Program-made: the position numbers and the translations under genes
Notes under the pieces: generated by a model
What the model was told of the DNA's origin: nothing
Database searches by the model: none
The model's input: only the letters and a program-made list of their open reading frames with translations
Shown here: positions 19,555 through 23,866 of the stretch, one piece after another
How positions within the stretch are numbered: position 1 is the stretch's first letter
How the letters are laid out: the number at the start of each line of letters is the position of its first letter
IMG/VR virus record: IMGVR_UViG_3300036828_000320
Coordinates: 1 to 24,094 of that record
Length of the DNA stretch: 24,094 nucleotides
Source of the DNA: a virus
Strand: one strand, 5' to 3'

Positions 19555-19871
19555 CAGTCAACACCTACCAGCGCCAGGCGTCGCTCGACCGAGCGAACCA
19601 GACGAAGGCCGAGATGGTCCAGCTCCGCAACCGGATCCGCGCCGCCGGCCGCGACGACGGCGCCCGGCTCGCCGCCGAGGCCGTCCTGCAGGCGACCAGC
19701 TCCCTGCGGTTCGCGCCGCTGCTGACGTCGATCCCCGGCGTCGGCGAGACCGCTTCTAACCGCATGCTGCACGTCGCGCGGATCAGCGCGGCCGCCCGCG
19801 TCAACTCGCGGTTCGTTGACCGGCGCCGGCGGATGCTGCTCGCCGACCTGCTCCTCGGACGGGCCGCCTGA
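19551..19871 (+). CDS. H2TH/mIHF-like DNA-binding protein
   Basis: This 106-residue protein starts at ATG 19551 (ATGA overlap; the frame upstream is inside the previous gene). After a basic helical N-terminus (TYQRQASLDRANQTKAEMVQ) it has the segment SSLRFAPLLTSIPGVGETAS followed by NRMLHVARISAAARVNSRFV and an Arg-rich helix (DRRRRMLLADLLLG). The order leucine helix, S-x-P-G-V-G turn, helix, I-x-x-x-x-R-V and final helix is that of mycobacterial integration host factor and related helix-two-turn-helix proteins. It would bend phage DNA for recombination, replication or gene control. I am fairly sure of the fold type, less of the exact role. Confidence 0.58.
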   Translation: MTVNTYQRQASLDRANQTKAEMVQLRNRIRAAGRDDGARLAAEAVLQATSSLRFAPLLTSIPGVGETASNRMLHVARISAAARVNSRFVDRRRRMLLADLLLGRAA

Positions 19872-20278
19872 TGGCGGCGTTCGTCACGACCGTCGCCCTG
19901 GCGATCACACCGATGCTCGACACGCTCGACGAGCTCGCGGGCTGCCCAGCGCCGGCGCCGGCGCACCACCACCAGCGGCCGCGGCCGCGGCGCGACCCGC
20001 CGCCGCCGCCGATGCAACAGGCGCTCGCGAGCTACTACGCCGACCCGCCCGGCTCCGCGAACGCCTGCGGGTTCGTCGCCCAGCTCGGCGTCGCCTCCAG
20101 AACGCTGCCGTGCGGCACCCACGTCCGGTTCTGCGCCGCGAGCTGCGCGACCGCGACCGTCGACGACCGGGGGCCCTACATCTACTCCCGTCTCTGGGAC
20201 CTGTCGGTCCAGCTCGCGCAGGCGATCGGCTTCGACCTCGGCGCCGGCGTCGCCCCGGTCAAGTGGGCGATCACATGA
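19871..20278 (+). CDS. Exported RlpA-like double-psi beta-barrel protein
   Basis: This 135-residue protein has a hydrophobic N-terminus (AAFVTTVALAITPML) that may be a weak signal peptide, then a His/Pro/Arg-rich linker (residues 26-48). The last part (about 50-135) is an RlpA/3D-type barrel: QALASYYADPPGSANACGFV, GVASRTLPCGTHVRFC, VDDRGPYIYSRLWDLS and GFDLGAGVAPVKW. The DRGP motif with D99 and the later D110-L-S match the conserved residues of RlpA, a septal lytic transglycosylase that cuts bare glycan strands. Extra cysteines (C66, C81, C88, C92) could form disulfides outside the cell. Its place in the early region, far from the endolysin, is odd. It could alter the wall early or block superinfection. 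Confidence 0.72.
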   Translation: MAAFVTTVALAITPMLDTLDELAGCPAPAPAHHHQRPRPRRDPPPPPMQQALASYYADPPGSANACGFVAQLGVASRTLPCGTHVRFCAASCATATVDDRGPYIYSRLWDLSVQLAQAIGFDLGAGVAPVKWAIT

Positions 20279-20301: not shown

Positions 20302-20838
20302 ATGCGCTCAACCAAGGTGGGCGCCCTCGTGGCGCTCTGGCTCGCCGCGATCGTCGCCGCGAACCTCACACTCACCCACTTCGGGCCCGGCTGGATCCTC
20401 CCCAACGCCTTCTTCCTGATCGGCCTCGACTTCATCACCCGAGACCGCCTCGCCGACTTCTGGGGCACTACCCGCTGGCTGAAGATGGCGCTGATGATCG
20501 CCGCCGGCGGCGCGCTGTCCTACTGGCTGAACCGCAACGCCGCCCAGATCGCGTTCGCCTCCACCGTCTCGTTCTGCGCCGCCGAGCTGGTCGAGGCGAT
20601 CGCCTACCACCTCCTCCGGCGGCAGCCCTGGGCCGACCGCGCGCCGAAGGCGGCGCTGCTCGCCGCCGCCGTCGACTCGGTCGTGTTCCCCACGCTCGCG
20701 TTCCACCAGTTCGTGTTCACCGTCAGCTTCGGCCAGTTCTGCGCCAAGCTCGCCGGCGCCACGTTCTGGACGTGGGTCATCGCCCGAACCGTCCCCGCCC
20801 CCGCCGTCGCGCCAGTCGTGCCCGTGGAGGCGCTATGA
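20302..20838 (+). CDS. YhhQ/VUT-family queuosine precursor transporter
   Basis: This 178-residue protein is all membrane helices. The start at 20302 is chosen because AAGGAGGG lies just upstream; ATG 20275, overlapping the previous stop, would add nine polar residues. The VUT (COG1738) pattern is visible: ALVALWLAAIVAANLTLTHF, GPGWILPNAFFLIGLDFITR followed by DRL, FASTVSFCAAELVEAIAYHL, and AAAVDSVVFPTLAF with D125. YhhQ carries preQ0 and preQ1 into bacterial cells, and phages with 7-deazaguanine DNA are known to carry YhhQ genes. The next two genes, QueD-like and DpdA-like, support that this one brings in the base precursor. It overlaps QueD by four bases. Confidence 0.8.
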   Translation: MRSTKVGALVALWLAAIVAANLTLTHFGPGWILPNAFFLIGLDFITRDRLADFWGTTRWLKMALMIAAGGALSYWLNRNAAQIAFASTVSFCAAELVEAIAYHLLRRQPWADRAPKAALLAAAVDSVVFPTLAFHQFVFTVSFGQFCAKLAGATFWTWVIARTVPAPAVAPVVPVEAL

Positions 20839-21143
20839 CCACCGTCGCGCGGCTCTACCGCTTCCGGGCGACGCACTCGCTGCCCGACTTCGCGCCGCCC
20901 TGGTGCTTCCCGCACCAGCACGACTACACCGTCGAGGTCGTCGCCCAGGGCGGCGTTGACACCGACGTCCTCGACCGCCGCTGGGCCGACACCGAGCTGC
21001 ACGGCACCGACCTCAACGAGATCGCCAACCCGTCGACCGTCGAGCACCTCGCCGAGCGGTTCCTTGACGAGATGCCCGCCGCCGTATTCGCCGTCACCGT
21101 CTGGGAGGACCAGGCGCGCTGGGGAAGGGCCGAGCGACCCTAA
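20835..21143 (+). CDS. queD: QueD-like 6-carboxytetrahydropterin synthase
   Basis: This 102-residue protein is slightly shorter than usual QueD (about 120). It shows the 6-pyruvoyl-tetrahydropterin synthase pattern: RFRATHSLPDFAPPWCFPHQ followed by HDYTVEVV. H14, H27 and H29 are the probable zinc ligands and C24 the catalytic cysteine. LNEIANPSTVEHLAERFLDE fits the second half of the active site, and E91 in VTVWED fits the pterin-anchoring glutamate. QueD converts dihydroneopterin triphosphate to 6-carboxytetrahydropterin, the first dedicated step to preQ0. It overlaps the transporter gene and abuts the DpdA-like gene. QueE, QueC and FolE are not seen in the window, so later steps would need the host, another part of the phage, or import. 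Confidence 0.8.
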   Translation: MTTVARLYRFRATHSLPDFAPPWCFPHQHDYTVEVVAQGGVDTDVLDRRWADTELHGTDLNEIANPSTVEHLAERFLDEMPAAVFAVTVWEDQARWGRAERP

Positions 21144-21851
21144 GTGCTGCACTACCACGTCACCCCGATCACCCCCCGCGAGCGGCTGCTGAGCATGGCC
21201 GGCCACTGCTTCTGCGTCAGCTTCGCCGACCCGCGCGACCTGCAGACCTGCCACGAGATCGGCCAGTCCGTGATGCTCGACAACGGCGCCTACTCGATCT
21301 GGAAGGCCGGCCGCGGCCGCGTCGACGTCGCCGCGTTCGCCCGCTGGGTCGAGCCGTGGCTCGACTTCAAAACGAGCTGGTGCGTCATCCCCGACGTGAT
21401 CGACGGCAGCGAGGACGACAACGACCAGCTGCTCCGCGAGTGGTTCGGCTACCGGCTGCCGTGGGACCAGTGCGCGCCGGTCTGGCACCTCCACGAGCCG
21501 CTCGAGCGGCTGCGGCGCCTCTGCAACGGCTACCCGCGCGTCTGCCTCGGATCCTCCGGCGCCTATGCGACGCCCGGCGACGAGCGCTGGCGCTGGCGCG
21601 TCACCGAGGTCATGAACGAGCTGTGCGGCGCCGGCGCGCCGCCGTGCTGGCTGCACATGCTCCGCGGGCTGACCGTCGCCAGCTCCTACCCGTTCGCGTC
21701 AGCCGACGGGATCGGGTCGCTCGGCAAGAACTGGAACCGCAACGGGCGGCGGCTCGACAGCGCCCGCGAGGCGCAGCGCATCGACGCCCAGCAGGGCCTC
21801 GCGCGCTGGCGCCCGGTAGCGCTGCCAACCGAACTGGAAGGAATCGCATGA
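21144..21851 (+). CDS. dpdA: DpdA-like DNA guanine transglycosylase
   Basis: This 235-residue protein starts at GTG 21144 directly after the QueD stop. It looks like a short TIM-barrel of the tRNA-guanine transglycosylase superfamily: SVMLDNGAYSIWKAGRGRVD with D46, CVIPDVIDGSEDDNDQLLRE with D84, APVWHLHEPLERLRRLC, then CLGSSGAYATPG, HMLRGLTVASSYPFASADGI with D188 and a GKNWNRNGRR end. The order D-N-G-A, P-D-V, H-x-H/E, L-G-S and S-A-D-x matches phage DpdA proteins, which exchange guanine in DNA for preQ0 or a related base. D46 or D188 would be the nucleophile. The end resembles the phage type (DpdA2 and relatives) more than the longer bacterial DpdA. Next to QueD and YhhQ-like genes, DNA rather than tRNA is the likely substrate. 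Confidence 0.72.
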   Translation: MLHYHVTPITPRERLLSMAGHCFCVSFADPRDLQTCHEIGQSVMLDNGAYSIWKAGRGRVDVAAFARWVEPWLDFKTSWCVIPDVIDGSEDDNDQLLREWFGYRLPWDQCAPVWHLHEPLERLRRLCNGYPRVCLGSSGAYATPGDERWRWRVTEVMNELCGAGAPPCWLHMLRGLTVASSYPFASADGIGSLGKNWNRNGRRLDSAREAQRIDAQQGLARWRPVALPTELEGIA

Positions 21852-22690
21852 CCCTACGGTCGTTCAGCTACGGCGCCGGCACGCAGTCGACCGCGGCGCT
21901 GGTGCTCGCCGCCCGCGGCGAGATCGACTTCCCGCTGTTCATGTTCTCGAACGTCGGCGCCGACTCTGAGAAGCCAGGGACGATCGAATACGTCCACACG
22001 GTCGCGGCGCCGTATGCGGCCGCCCACGGGATCGAGCTAGTCGAGGTCAGCCGCGTCGAGGGCAAGGGAGAGCACACCGGCGAGTCGCTGCTGGAGCACA
22101 TGGTTCGGCTAGAGAAGGGCTACCCGATCCCGATGCGGCTCGCGCCCGCCGGCATCCCCAGCAAGCGCGTCTGCACCCACAAGTTCAAGATCGACGTGAT
22201 CGCCCGCGAGCTCGAACGCCGCGGCGCTAGCAAGACGGACCCGGCGTGGGTCGGGCTCGGGATCACAACCGACGAGATCGAGCGGGCCCGCTCCGAGTTC
22301 GACCCGCGCAACCCGACGCAGCGGCGCTGCTACCCGCTGCTGGACCTGCGGCTGCATCGCAGCGACTGCGAGCGGATCATCGCCGAGGCCGGGCTGCCGC
22401 AGCCAGGGAAGTCGTGCTGCTGGTTCTGCCCGTTCCACCGCACCGAGGACTGGCGCAAGATGCGCCGCGACACGCCCGAGCTGTTCGAGAAGGCGTGCGG
22501 CGTCGAGGAGCTGCTGCAGGAGCGCCGCAAGAAGCAGCAGGCGGAGGACCCGAGCCGCGGCACCGTCTACCTGACCTCCGCCGGCGCGACGCGCGGGAAG
22601 ACGCTCCGCGAGCTGCTCGCCGACGACGAGCAGATGACCTTCGACGACGAGCTGTCGGACGCCTGCGACGGCGGCTATTGCATGACATGA
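21848..22690 (+). CDS. PP-loop ATPase, PAPS-reductase-like phage family
   Basis: This 280-residue protein starts at ATG 21848 (overlap with DpdA; GGAAGGA upstream). It begins LRSFSYGAGTQSTAALVLAA, a PP-loop nucleotide site (S7-Y-G-x-G-T-Q-S-T15) like that of PAPS reductase, DndC and other adenine nucleotide alpha-hydrolases, and continues FPLFMFSNVGADSEKPGTIE. Conserved cysteines are C109 (KRVCTHKFK) and the cluster C190-C191-W-F-C194-P-F-H-R, which may bind zinc or a metal cluster. The end GACDGGYCMT-like (ACDGGYCMT) is typical of a phage family I know from actinobacterial prophages. It may activate a substrate with ATP in the modification pathway, in place of QueC, or add sulfur or another group to DNA or RNA. 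The family is clear, the reaction is not. Confidence 0.72.
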   Translation: MTLRSFSYGAGTQSTAALVLAARGEIDFPLFMFSNVGADSEKPGTIEYVHTVAAPYAAAHGIELVEVSRVEGKGEHTGESLLEHMVRLEKGYPIPMRLAPAGIPSKRVCTHKFKIDVIARELERRGASKTDPAWVGLGITTDEIERARSEFDPRNPTQRRCYPLLDLRLHRSDCERIIAEAGLPQPGKSCCWFCPFHRTEDWRKMRRDTPELFEKACGVEELLQERRKKQQAEDPSRGTVYLTSAGATRGKTLRELLADDEQMTFDDELSDACDGGYCMT

Positions 22691-22914: not shown

Positions 22915-23564
22915 AGATCACCCAATACATCAACGCCGAGAAGGCGATCATCAGCGCTGACGGCAGTGGCATCCGCCAACGGTGGCTCTACGGCCTGCGA
23001 CTGCTACGCGACCCGCAGGCCATGTCGCCGAACGGCGACGGCGTCAGCCAGAGCCTCCGTCACGGCATCACCGAGGTCTTGCTTGACGTCGCCGAGAAGC
23101 ACGGACTGAAGCTCTCGGCGCGCGAAATCCGCTACCGCGTGCAGTGCGCTCGGACCTATCCAACGGAGTCCCAAATCGGCAGCGCGGCTGCCGATTTCAG
23201 GACCTGGAGAGACCTCTGTGACGCCGGTTTCCCGACCTACGAGGCGGAGCCCGAAGAACCGGCCGCCGACCACCGCACCCAGGCCGAACGCGACCACGCT
23301 CGCGCCCGGCAACTGCTGCTCGAGGTCGGCCCGCAAGGGCACCTGTTCCCACTCGACGAGTTCGAGCCGACCGAGGTCACGCTACGGGAGCTCGTGGCAT
23401 ACGCCGACGAGCAGGACCAGATAACCGAACGATTCGCCGCACGCGGCCGCGAACGCCGCGCATACCTCAAAGACCTCCTGCAGGCCGTCGACTACAACGT
23501 CAACACCACCTGGCAGGACGCCCACCAGGCCGCTTACGCCGACCAGGAGCCGGTGCCTGCGTAA
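22911..23564 (+). CDS. Unknown protein, phage early-region type
   Basis: This 217-residue soluble protein has a very clear start (GGAGGGACAA before ATG 22911). The N-terminal half holds GIRQRWLYGLRLLRDPQAMS and AEKHGLKLSAREIRYRVQCA followed by RTYPTESQIG and a DFRTWRDLCDAGFP helix, a pattern I associate with phage proteins of unknown role that sort tyrosine/tryptophan-rich helices. The second half is charged and helical (RTQAERDHARARQLLLEVGP, EQDQITERFAARGRERRAYL), possibly a coiled coil. Its first part is less GC-rich than the neighbouring genes. The coding sequence contains a perfect 11-base-pair hairpin at 23173-23197. Function unknown; the place between modification genes and a resolvase suggests DNA metabolism. 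Confidence 0.65.
   Translation: MKITQYINAEKAIISADGSGIRQRWLYGLRLLRDPQAMSPNGDGVSQSLRHGITEVLLDVAEKHGLKLSAREIRYRVQCARTYPTESQIGSAAADFRTWRDLCDAGFPTYEAEPEEPAADHRTQAERDHARARQLLLEVGPQGHLFPLDEFEPTEVTLRELVAYADEQDQITERFAARGRERRAYLKDLLQAVDYNVNTTWQDAHQAAYADQEPVPA
23173..23197. repeat. Perfect 11-base-pair hairpin inside a coding region
   Basis: AAATCGGCAGC (23173-23183) pairs with GCTGCCGATTT (23187-23197) around a GCG loop. The A-run on one side and T-run on the other give it the look of a short bidirectional terminator, but it is in frame within the gene at 22911. Confidence 0.65.
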
Positions 23565-23866
23565 TGAGCCATCGAGGCGTCGACCGAGATCGCCGCGTTC
23601 GCGATCTGCTCGCCGGCGAGGACTGGTTCGCCGTCTGCGCCCGCGGCAGCCACGGTGCCGCCGACGTCGTCGCGATCCGCGTCGGGTCGATCCCGCGAGT
23701 CGTCCAGGTCAAGTCGACCGCCCAGGGGCCCTACGAGCGATTCGGCCCGGCCGAGCGCGCCGAGCTGTCCTACGCCGCCGAGCTCGGCGGCGCTCAGGCG
23801 CTGCTCGCGTGGTGGCCGCCGCGCGGCAAGCTGCGGTGGATCCCCGAAGCCGAGTGGCCGCGATGA
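23564..23866 (+). CDS. Putative Holliday junction resolvase (PD-(D/E)xK nuclease)
   Basis: This 100-residue protein starts at ATG 23564, overlapping the previous stop by one base. It matches small Hjc-like resolvases: GVDRDRRVRDLLAGEDWFAV, CARGSHGAADVVAIRVG with D34, and RVVQVKSTAQGPYERF with Q48-V-K50, followed by a helix with AERAELSYAAELGGAQALLA and a final strand WIPEAEW. The catalytic set would be an N-terminal acidic residue, D34, Q48 and K50; Q in place of E is a known variant in this nuclease superfamily. It would cut branched DNA from recombination-dependent replication before packaging, which suits the annealing and SSB-like genes upstream. Confidence 0.72.
   Translation: MSHRGVDRDRRVRDLLAGEDWFAVCARGSHGAADVVAIRVGSIPRVVQVKSTAQGPYERFGPAERAELSYAAELGGAQALLAWWPPRGKLRWIPEAEWPR

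Follow-up and report, generated by a model that had tools for sequence, protein, structure and literature searches.

The window analysed here is the whole of IMG/VR record IMGVR_UViG_3300036828_000320, a stretch of 24,094 bases that represents a fragment of a phage only. Its GC content is ∼71%, and genes for a tail sheath, tail tube, tape measure, tail fibre and endolysin are present, in agreement with the GC-rich, contractile-tail carrier described in an earlier note on this DNA. The features that concern us are the following:

19871-20278, just 5' of the module: DPBB lytic-transglycosylase-like (RlpA-type) protein (Pfam DPBB_1, 3.3e-8)
20302-20838, plus strand: VUT / COG1738-like transporter, short phage form, 178 aa (phrog_4899, Vut_1)
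20835-21143, plus strand: QueD-fold (COG0720/PTPS) protein with an altered active site, 102 aa (PTPS, AlphaFold2, Foldseek)
21144-21851, plus strand: predicted short singleton-type DpdA (TGT-fold DNA guanine transglycosylase), 235 aa (phrog_887, hhalign, AlphaFold2)
21848-22690, plus strand: PP-loop (PAPS-reductase-like) protein, 280 aa (phrog_424, PADLOC SspD)
23564-23866: Hjc-like Holliday junction resolvase, a weak match (19.7 bits, under the curated cut-off of 21.1)

That the three genes at 20302-21851 are real is confirmed. All lie on the plus strand; the transporter and QueD-like genes meet in an ATGA overlap, and the GTG start of the DpdA gene abuts the TAA stop of the QueD-like gene. 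Because their GC3 is 95-96% with a GC2 of 47-52%, we take all three to be coding. The range of GC3 is 94-96% when the PP-loop gene, whose start codon overlaps the DpdA stop and which is translationally coupled to DpdA, is counted as a fourth. Coordinates, coding GC3 and family matches all agree with the compact 7-deazaguanine module of three overlapping or abutting genes that the earlier note had proposed. Its observation that QueE, QueC and FolE are missing from the window also holds, in that profile searches of this 24-kb fragment found no match to QueC, FolE or radical-SAM families. Clues to the host point in two directions, since close relatives of the DpdA occur in Actinomycetota MAGs but also in one Rhodospirillales MAG.

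The third protein matches phrog_887, 'queuine tRNA-ribosyltransferase', at 2.7e-45, and aligns over nearly its whole length with gp38 of Pantoea phage MED16 (hhalign probability 100, E 8e-56, 32% identity); a search of phage records also matched it to phage 7-11, and 102 phage records hold relatives. Its earlier description as a TGT-type, DpdA-like enzyme is borne out by these matches. All 40 of the DpdA sequences compared have D46, D84, H115, G136, H171 and D188, and this set of Asp, His and Gly residues, which includes the three aspartates previously singled out, is common to the window protein, MED16 gp38 and the proteins of Salmonella phages SEN1, SW9 and 7-11 (phrog_887). The AlphaFold2 model is a confident TIM barrel (pLDDT 91.8). 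Archaeosine TGT (1J2B) is second of its 925 PDB matches (E 4.8e-3, TM 0.51), a position to be read in the light of generic TIM barrels scoring alike, while among viral models (BFVD) its fold matches include many phage queuine tRNA-ribosyltransferases. Membership of a family that has no TGT-like barrel, the outcome that had been named as fatal to the original reading, did not emerge from the phrog_887, PDB, BFVD or hhalign comparisons. By phmmer, PDB sequences returned nothing useful for DpdA, nor for the QueD-like protein alone. We also considered DpdA2 of the nt-1 type but preferred the MED16/7-11 type. Among the viral models, an uncharacterized Vibrio phage nt-1 protein, R9TGF0, which is probably DpdA2, resembles the window fold only weakly (E 0.012, TM 0.46, rank 28); DpdA2 has been treated as a separate, highly diverged group (PMC8306585). 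As judged by sequence comparison, the third protein is a short singleton DpdA of phrog_887, of the MED16/7-11 type.

We are nevertheless cautious about its activity. Past D188, the presumed nucleophile (21705-21713, residues 188-190), the window protein has Gly-Ile, where Ser189 is found in 37 and Thr190 in 34 of 40 relatives, and this is its difference from the MED16, SEN1, SW9 and 7-11 type. Furthermore, dN/dS between the window DpdA and its relatives is 0.52-0.55, compared with 0.29 among those relatives. Given the divergence after D188 and the raised dN/dS, activity of this DpdA is not assured. The family is tied to 7-deazaguanine in DNA and, by analogy, the window enzyme would place 7-deazaguanine in the DNA of its phage. 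In the relatives for which DNA has been analysed, dADG makes up ∼0.13% of guanines in MED16 (PMC8306585) and ∼0.02% in phage 7-11 (PMC6884629); most enzymes tested cut MED16 DNA, with dADG having no noticeable effect on restriction (PMC8306585). Neither large-scale guanine replacement nor escape from restriction, both of which the earlier note had invoked, is established for this DpdA subfamily.

The first gene had been called a YhhQ-like transporter, a description that stands at the level of the family but not of the equivalog. The protein matches the C-terminal half of the Pfam Vut_1 profile (1.8e-8, 35.3 bits, cut-off 27.2) and phrog_4899 (1.7e-32), but is under the equivalog cut-offs of both TIGR00697 (17.5 vs 50.95) and PRK11212 (15.5 vs 252). 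Its dN/dS is 0.13-0.17. Its nearest relatives come from a single metagenome, where they occupy loci L008 and L144 (85-86% identity) and L143 (87%, by tblastn). At L008 and L144 the transporter overlaps DpdA directly, with no QueD-like gene in between, while at L143 (4001-5142) the next gene encodes a TGT-like protein from a different family, phrog_15826, in place of the short DpdA. Since the type of enzyme is swapped at L143 yet the pairing is kept, transporter and transglycosylase go together, and we regard a pairing that outlasts such a swap as good evidence for the transporter serving the transglycosylase. The pairing is recurrent. In 136 comparison loci, which are partial, related by descent and chosen by similarity to the window DpdA, the transporter is present in 40, 38 of which have it within 400 nt of DpdA; conversely, 66 of 73 loci seeded with the transporter carry such a transglycosylase. 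A VUT gene also adjoins the same type of DpdA in Flyfo siphovirus Tbat1_6, Pectobacterium phage PEAT2, Rhizobium phage RHph_N3_2 and Pseudanabaena phage Pam5, although in these pairs, unlike the window, the QueD-like gene is absent. Hutinet et al. described YhhQ homologues in some DpdA phages, with no clear pattern (PMC6884629). Within the present sample, coupling of transporter to DpdA is specific to the short DpdA family.

For the middle gene, read previously as a QueD-like enzyme, the fold, the zinc triad and the Glu were upheld, but the protein is without the Asp-His pair of QueD and fails the TIGR03367 cut-off. The protein is barely above the cut-off of Pfam PTPS (1e-4, 22.7 bits against 22.4) and far below that of the QueD equivalog TIGR03367 (17.5 vs 89.25 bits). 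Of three QueD-type profiles, that of canonical QueD is nearest (19.0 bits, hhalign 95%). Its AlphaFold2 model (pLDDT 91.7) has E. coli QueD as its best PDB match (Foldseek E=2.6e-6, TM ∼0.83). In an alignment of 19 sequences, the window protein and 18 relatives, the zinc triad of H14, H27 and H29 is invariant. The pterin-anchor Glu, E91, is kept, and C24 is present as the earlier note had said, but two residues before the first zinc His, where E. coli QueD has three. The Asp-His pair of QueD, present in almost every other sequence of the 19, has become His-Gly in the window protein alone. A loop of ∼15 residues, which in its relatives connects the first two strands to the first helix, is deleted. 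Together with the protein of L071, it is the most degenerate of the aligned homologues. At the sensitivities used, searches of 2.9 million viral contigs, 84,980 genomes and 50,697 phage records yielded no close homologue.

Two further assignments of the middle protein were tried and rejected. There is no match to phrog_17812, the phrog_17812-group profile giving 8.2 bits where the best shuffle gave 6.0, and the protein lacks the RDIE / SCE / EDG motifs of that family. As a Cys-less mini-QueD it scores 9.6 bits, on par with shuffles.

With its Asp-His pair lost, its Cys shifted and the QueD equivalog cut-off failed, this gene does not support the de novo capacity for preQ0 that had been ascribed to it. 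Within COG0720, function is known to shift with one change in the active site, and experts could not assign its short or motif-less members (PMC5041015). Our conclusion is that the middle protein has the QueD fold but probably a changed function, and is probably not a working CPH4 synthase. A caution that follows for phage genomes generally is that short QueD annotations should not be equated with de novo capacity.

The joint presence of transporter and QueD-fold gene at DpdA had been remarked on as unusual, and the comparison loci agree: the QueD-like gene is present in 18 of the 136, and both together in none. After clustering DpdA at 80% identity, 97 loci are left, with the QueD-like gene in 15, the transporter in 34 and both in none, for which the chance is ∼8e-4 if the two are independent; as the loci are incomplete, selected for likeness to the window and of common descent, this figure is indicative only. 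Transporter and QueD-fold gene do co-occur in phages that carry more of the pathway (L185, L211). The transporter, QueD-fold protein and DpdA of the window are thus a rare grouping of known parts.

Among known systems, MED16 is reported with dpdA alone, to which the window adds the transporter and the QueD-fold gene; MED16, SEN1, SW9 and 7-11 are like the window in having no QueE, QueC or FolE in the record. Caulobacter phage DMCA resembles the window in carrying a short QueD-fold gene (6-carboxytetrahydropterin synthase) directly 5' of DpdA, but it has no transporter, and its QueD-like protein keeps Asp-His and has lost the Cys, the reverse of the window protein; its complete genome has no radical SAM gene. 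An analogous trio is found in Faecalibacterium phage Roos, where orf77-orf79 (L218 7031-8899), all annotated as hypothetical, encode in a row a QueD-superfamily protein, a phrog_887 transglycosylase and a VUT protein. The Roos QueD-like protein belongs with phrog_17812 and has RDIE-like and SCE motifs, which are absent from the window protein, and Roos has a full-length VUT protein and a transglycosylase of 303 aa where the window has a short VUT protein and a DpdA of 235 aa. Enterobacteria phage 9g, Vibrio phage nt-1 and L185 share with the window a DpdA-family enzyme and a QueD-fold protein, L185 having a transporter also, but they carry QueE, FolE and QueC, a complete preQ0 pathway of which the window record has none.

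The PP-loop protein encoded immediately after DpdA matches phrog_424 (1.1e-31) and PADLOC SspD (5.9e-12). We rejected it as a hidden QueC, as it is without a PF06508 match and its best match is to SspD/PAPS reductase. The family is present in only 13 of the 136 DpdA loci, and in six of these is within ∼220 nt of DpdA. It is a possible fourth member of the module.

The coupling of the transporter to DpdA points to salvage, and the reading that we favour, with somewhat more belief than doubt, is that of a salvage-fed module for 7-deazaguanine modification of DNA. The transporter would supply the infected cell from outside with a precursor base of queuosine (preQ0, preQ1 or a similar compound), and the short DpdA would swap a small fraction of the guanines in phage DNA for 7-deazaguanine by the base-exchange mechanism of TGT. 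The QueD-fold zinc protein would more likely handle a 7-deazaguanine or pterin intermediate that comes from the host or the medium. Against such a module, the record is a fragment, and QueE, QueC and FolE may lie outside it. DpdAs of the MED16 and 7-11 types give very low modification, with no measured benefit, and the transporter, going by its sequence, fails the cut-off for a queuosine-precursor transporter.

The competing explanations differ chiefly in what they make of the middle gene. Were it a functional QueD, as in the earlier note's model, it would make CPH4 and so raise the preQ0 pool of the host, the transporter importing extra precursor. A fold best matched by E. coli QueD, the retained zinc histidines, nearby Cys and anchor Glu, and the proximity of the canonical QueD profile are all in keeping with this, as are the complete isolate genome of DMCA, in which a QueD-fold gene adjoins the same DpdA without QueE, and loci L024 and L031, in which canonical QueD and QueE lie beside DpdA. 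We nonetheless think it unlikely, given that the Asp-His pair is lost, the Cys-to-His spacing shortened, the ∼15-residue loop absent and TIGR03367 failed, and that QueE and QueC are absent from the record. The same degeneration, extreme among the 19 aligned sequences and shared with L071, could instead mark the QueD-like gene as a decaying passenger, with the transporter and DpdA alone mattering; its absence from the nearest relatives, L008 and L144, and the failure to find a close homologue in the contigs, genomes and phage records searched fit this idea. A decaying gene would hardly be expected to keep an intact frame, a GC3 of 95%, translational coupling to the gene upstream, the zinc triad and Glu, and a confident predicted fold, and we regard it as distinctly doubtful that this one is merely being carried along.

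It has also to be asked whether DNA is the target. An auxiliary metabolic module that feeds queuosine in tRNA, or another RNA, would suit a host that has TGT but cannot synthesise the precursor. Two Actinomycetota MAGs with a related prophage DpdA have cellular TGT, no PTPS and no full-length match to QueC, so that a phage there would need import, although MAGs may be incomplete; the Rhodospirillales MAG with a close DpdA relative has the precursor pathway. The TGT fold family does act on tRNA in cells, but among the nearest relatives for which measurements exist, the link is to modified DNA (PMC8306585, PMC6884629), and the window DpdA belongs to a phage-only profile family and lacks the C-terminal portion that tRNA TGTs have (235 aa vs ∼350-380). 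A role in RNA modification seems to us very improbable.

Salvage-fed modification of DNA would bear on the source of the modified base in phages with dpdA only, and of dADG in MED16 and 7-11, which have no known enzyme for it (PMC6884629, PMC8306585). The step that is missing there, be it tailoring or supply, might be performed by QueD-fold proteins that have an altered active site and a fixed place next to DpdA. We offer as a speculation, and one rather unlikely to prove right, that such neighbours of phage DpdA have taken on a new task and modify a 7-deazaguanine base that is already complete, either before DpdA inserts it or afterwards; hydration of preQ0 to the amide and loss of the carboxyl group from CDG are examples. 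Import, tailoring of the base by a QueD paralog and insertion by DpdA would then be all that such a salvage pathway needs to put a tailored base into DNA. Isolates carrying such QueD-fold/DpdA neighbours exist in Caulobacter phage DMCA and Faecalibacterium phage Roos.

Two related QueD-fold families were met alongside. Members of phrog_17812 (L216 6899-7273, L218 7031-7339, L220 5881-6273, L222 8995-9342, L226 3995-4378 and L227 3992-4363) have no annotated function, being listed as hypothetical, and no Pfam family, but form a paralog within the QueD superfamily (hhalign 95% vs canonical QueD). In 7-deazaguanine gene clusters of phages, among them Cellulophaga phage phiST, Acidovorax phage ACP17 and Xanthomonas phage X1, the family adjoins transglycosylase, QueD, QueE and FolE genes. 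It is possibly DpdL, a decarboxylase of CDG that was described in 2023. The second family, a Cys-less mini-QueD of ∼100 residues, conserves the zinc triad, Asp-His and the Glu. It lies directly 5' of a short DpdA in 14 of 14 loci found with mini-QueD as the query (L229-L242), with QueE directly upstream of it in 11 and neither FolE nor QueC within 3 kb. If mini-QueD is active and the host provides FolE, mini-QueD and QueE together would yield CDG. The mini-QueD also precedes DpdA in L041, L048, L053, L062, L068, L069, L071 and L002 (DMCA), directly in all but L041.
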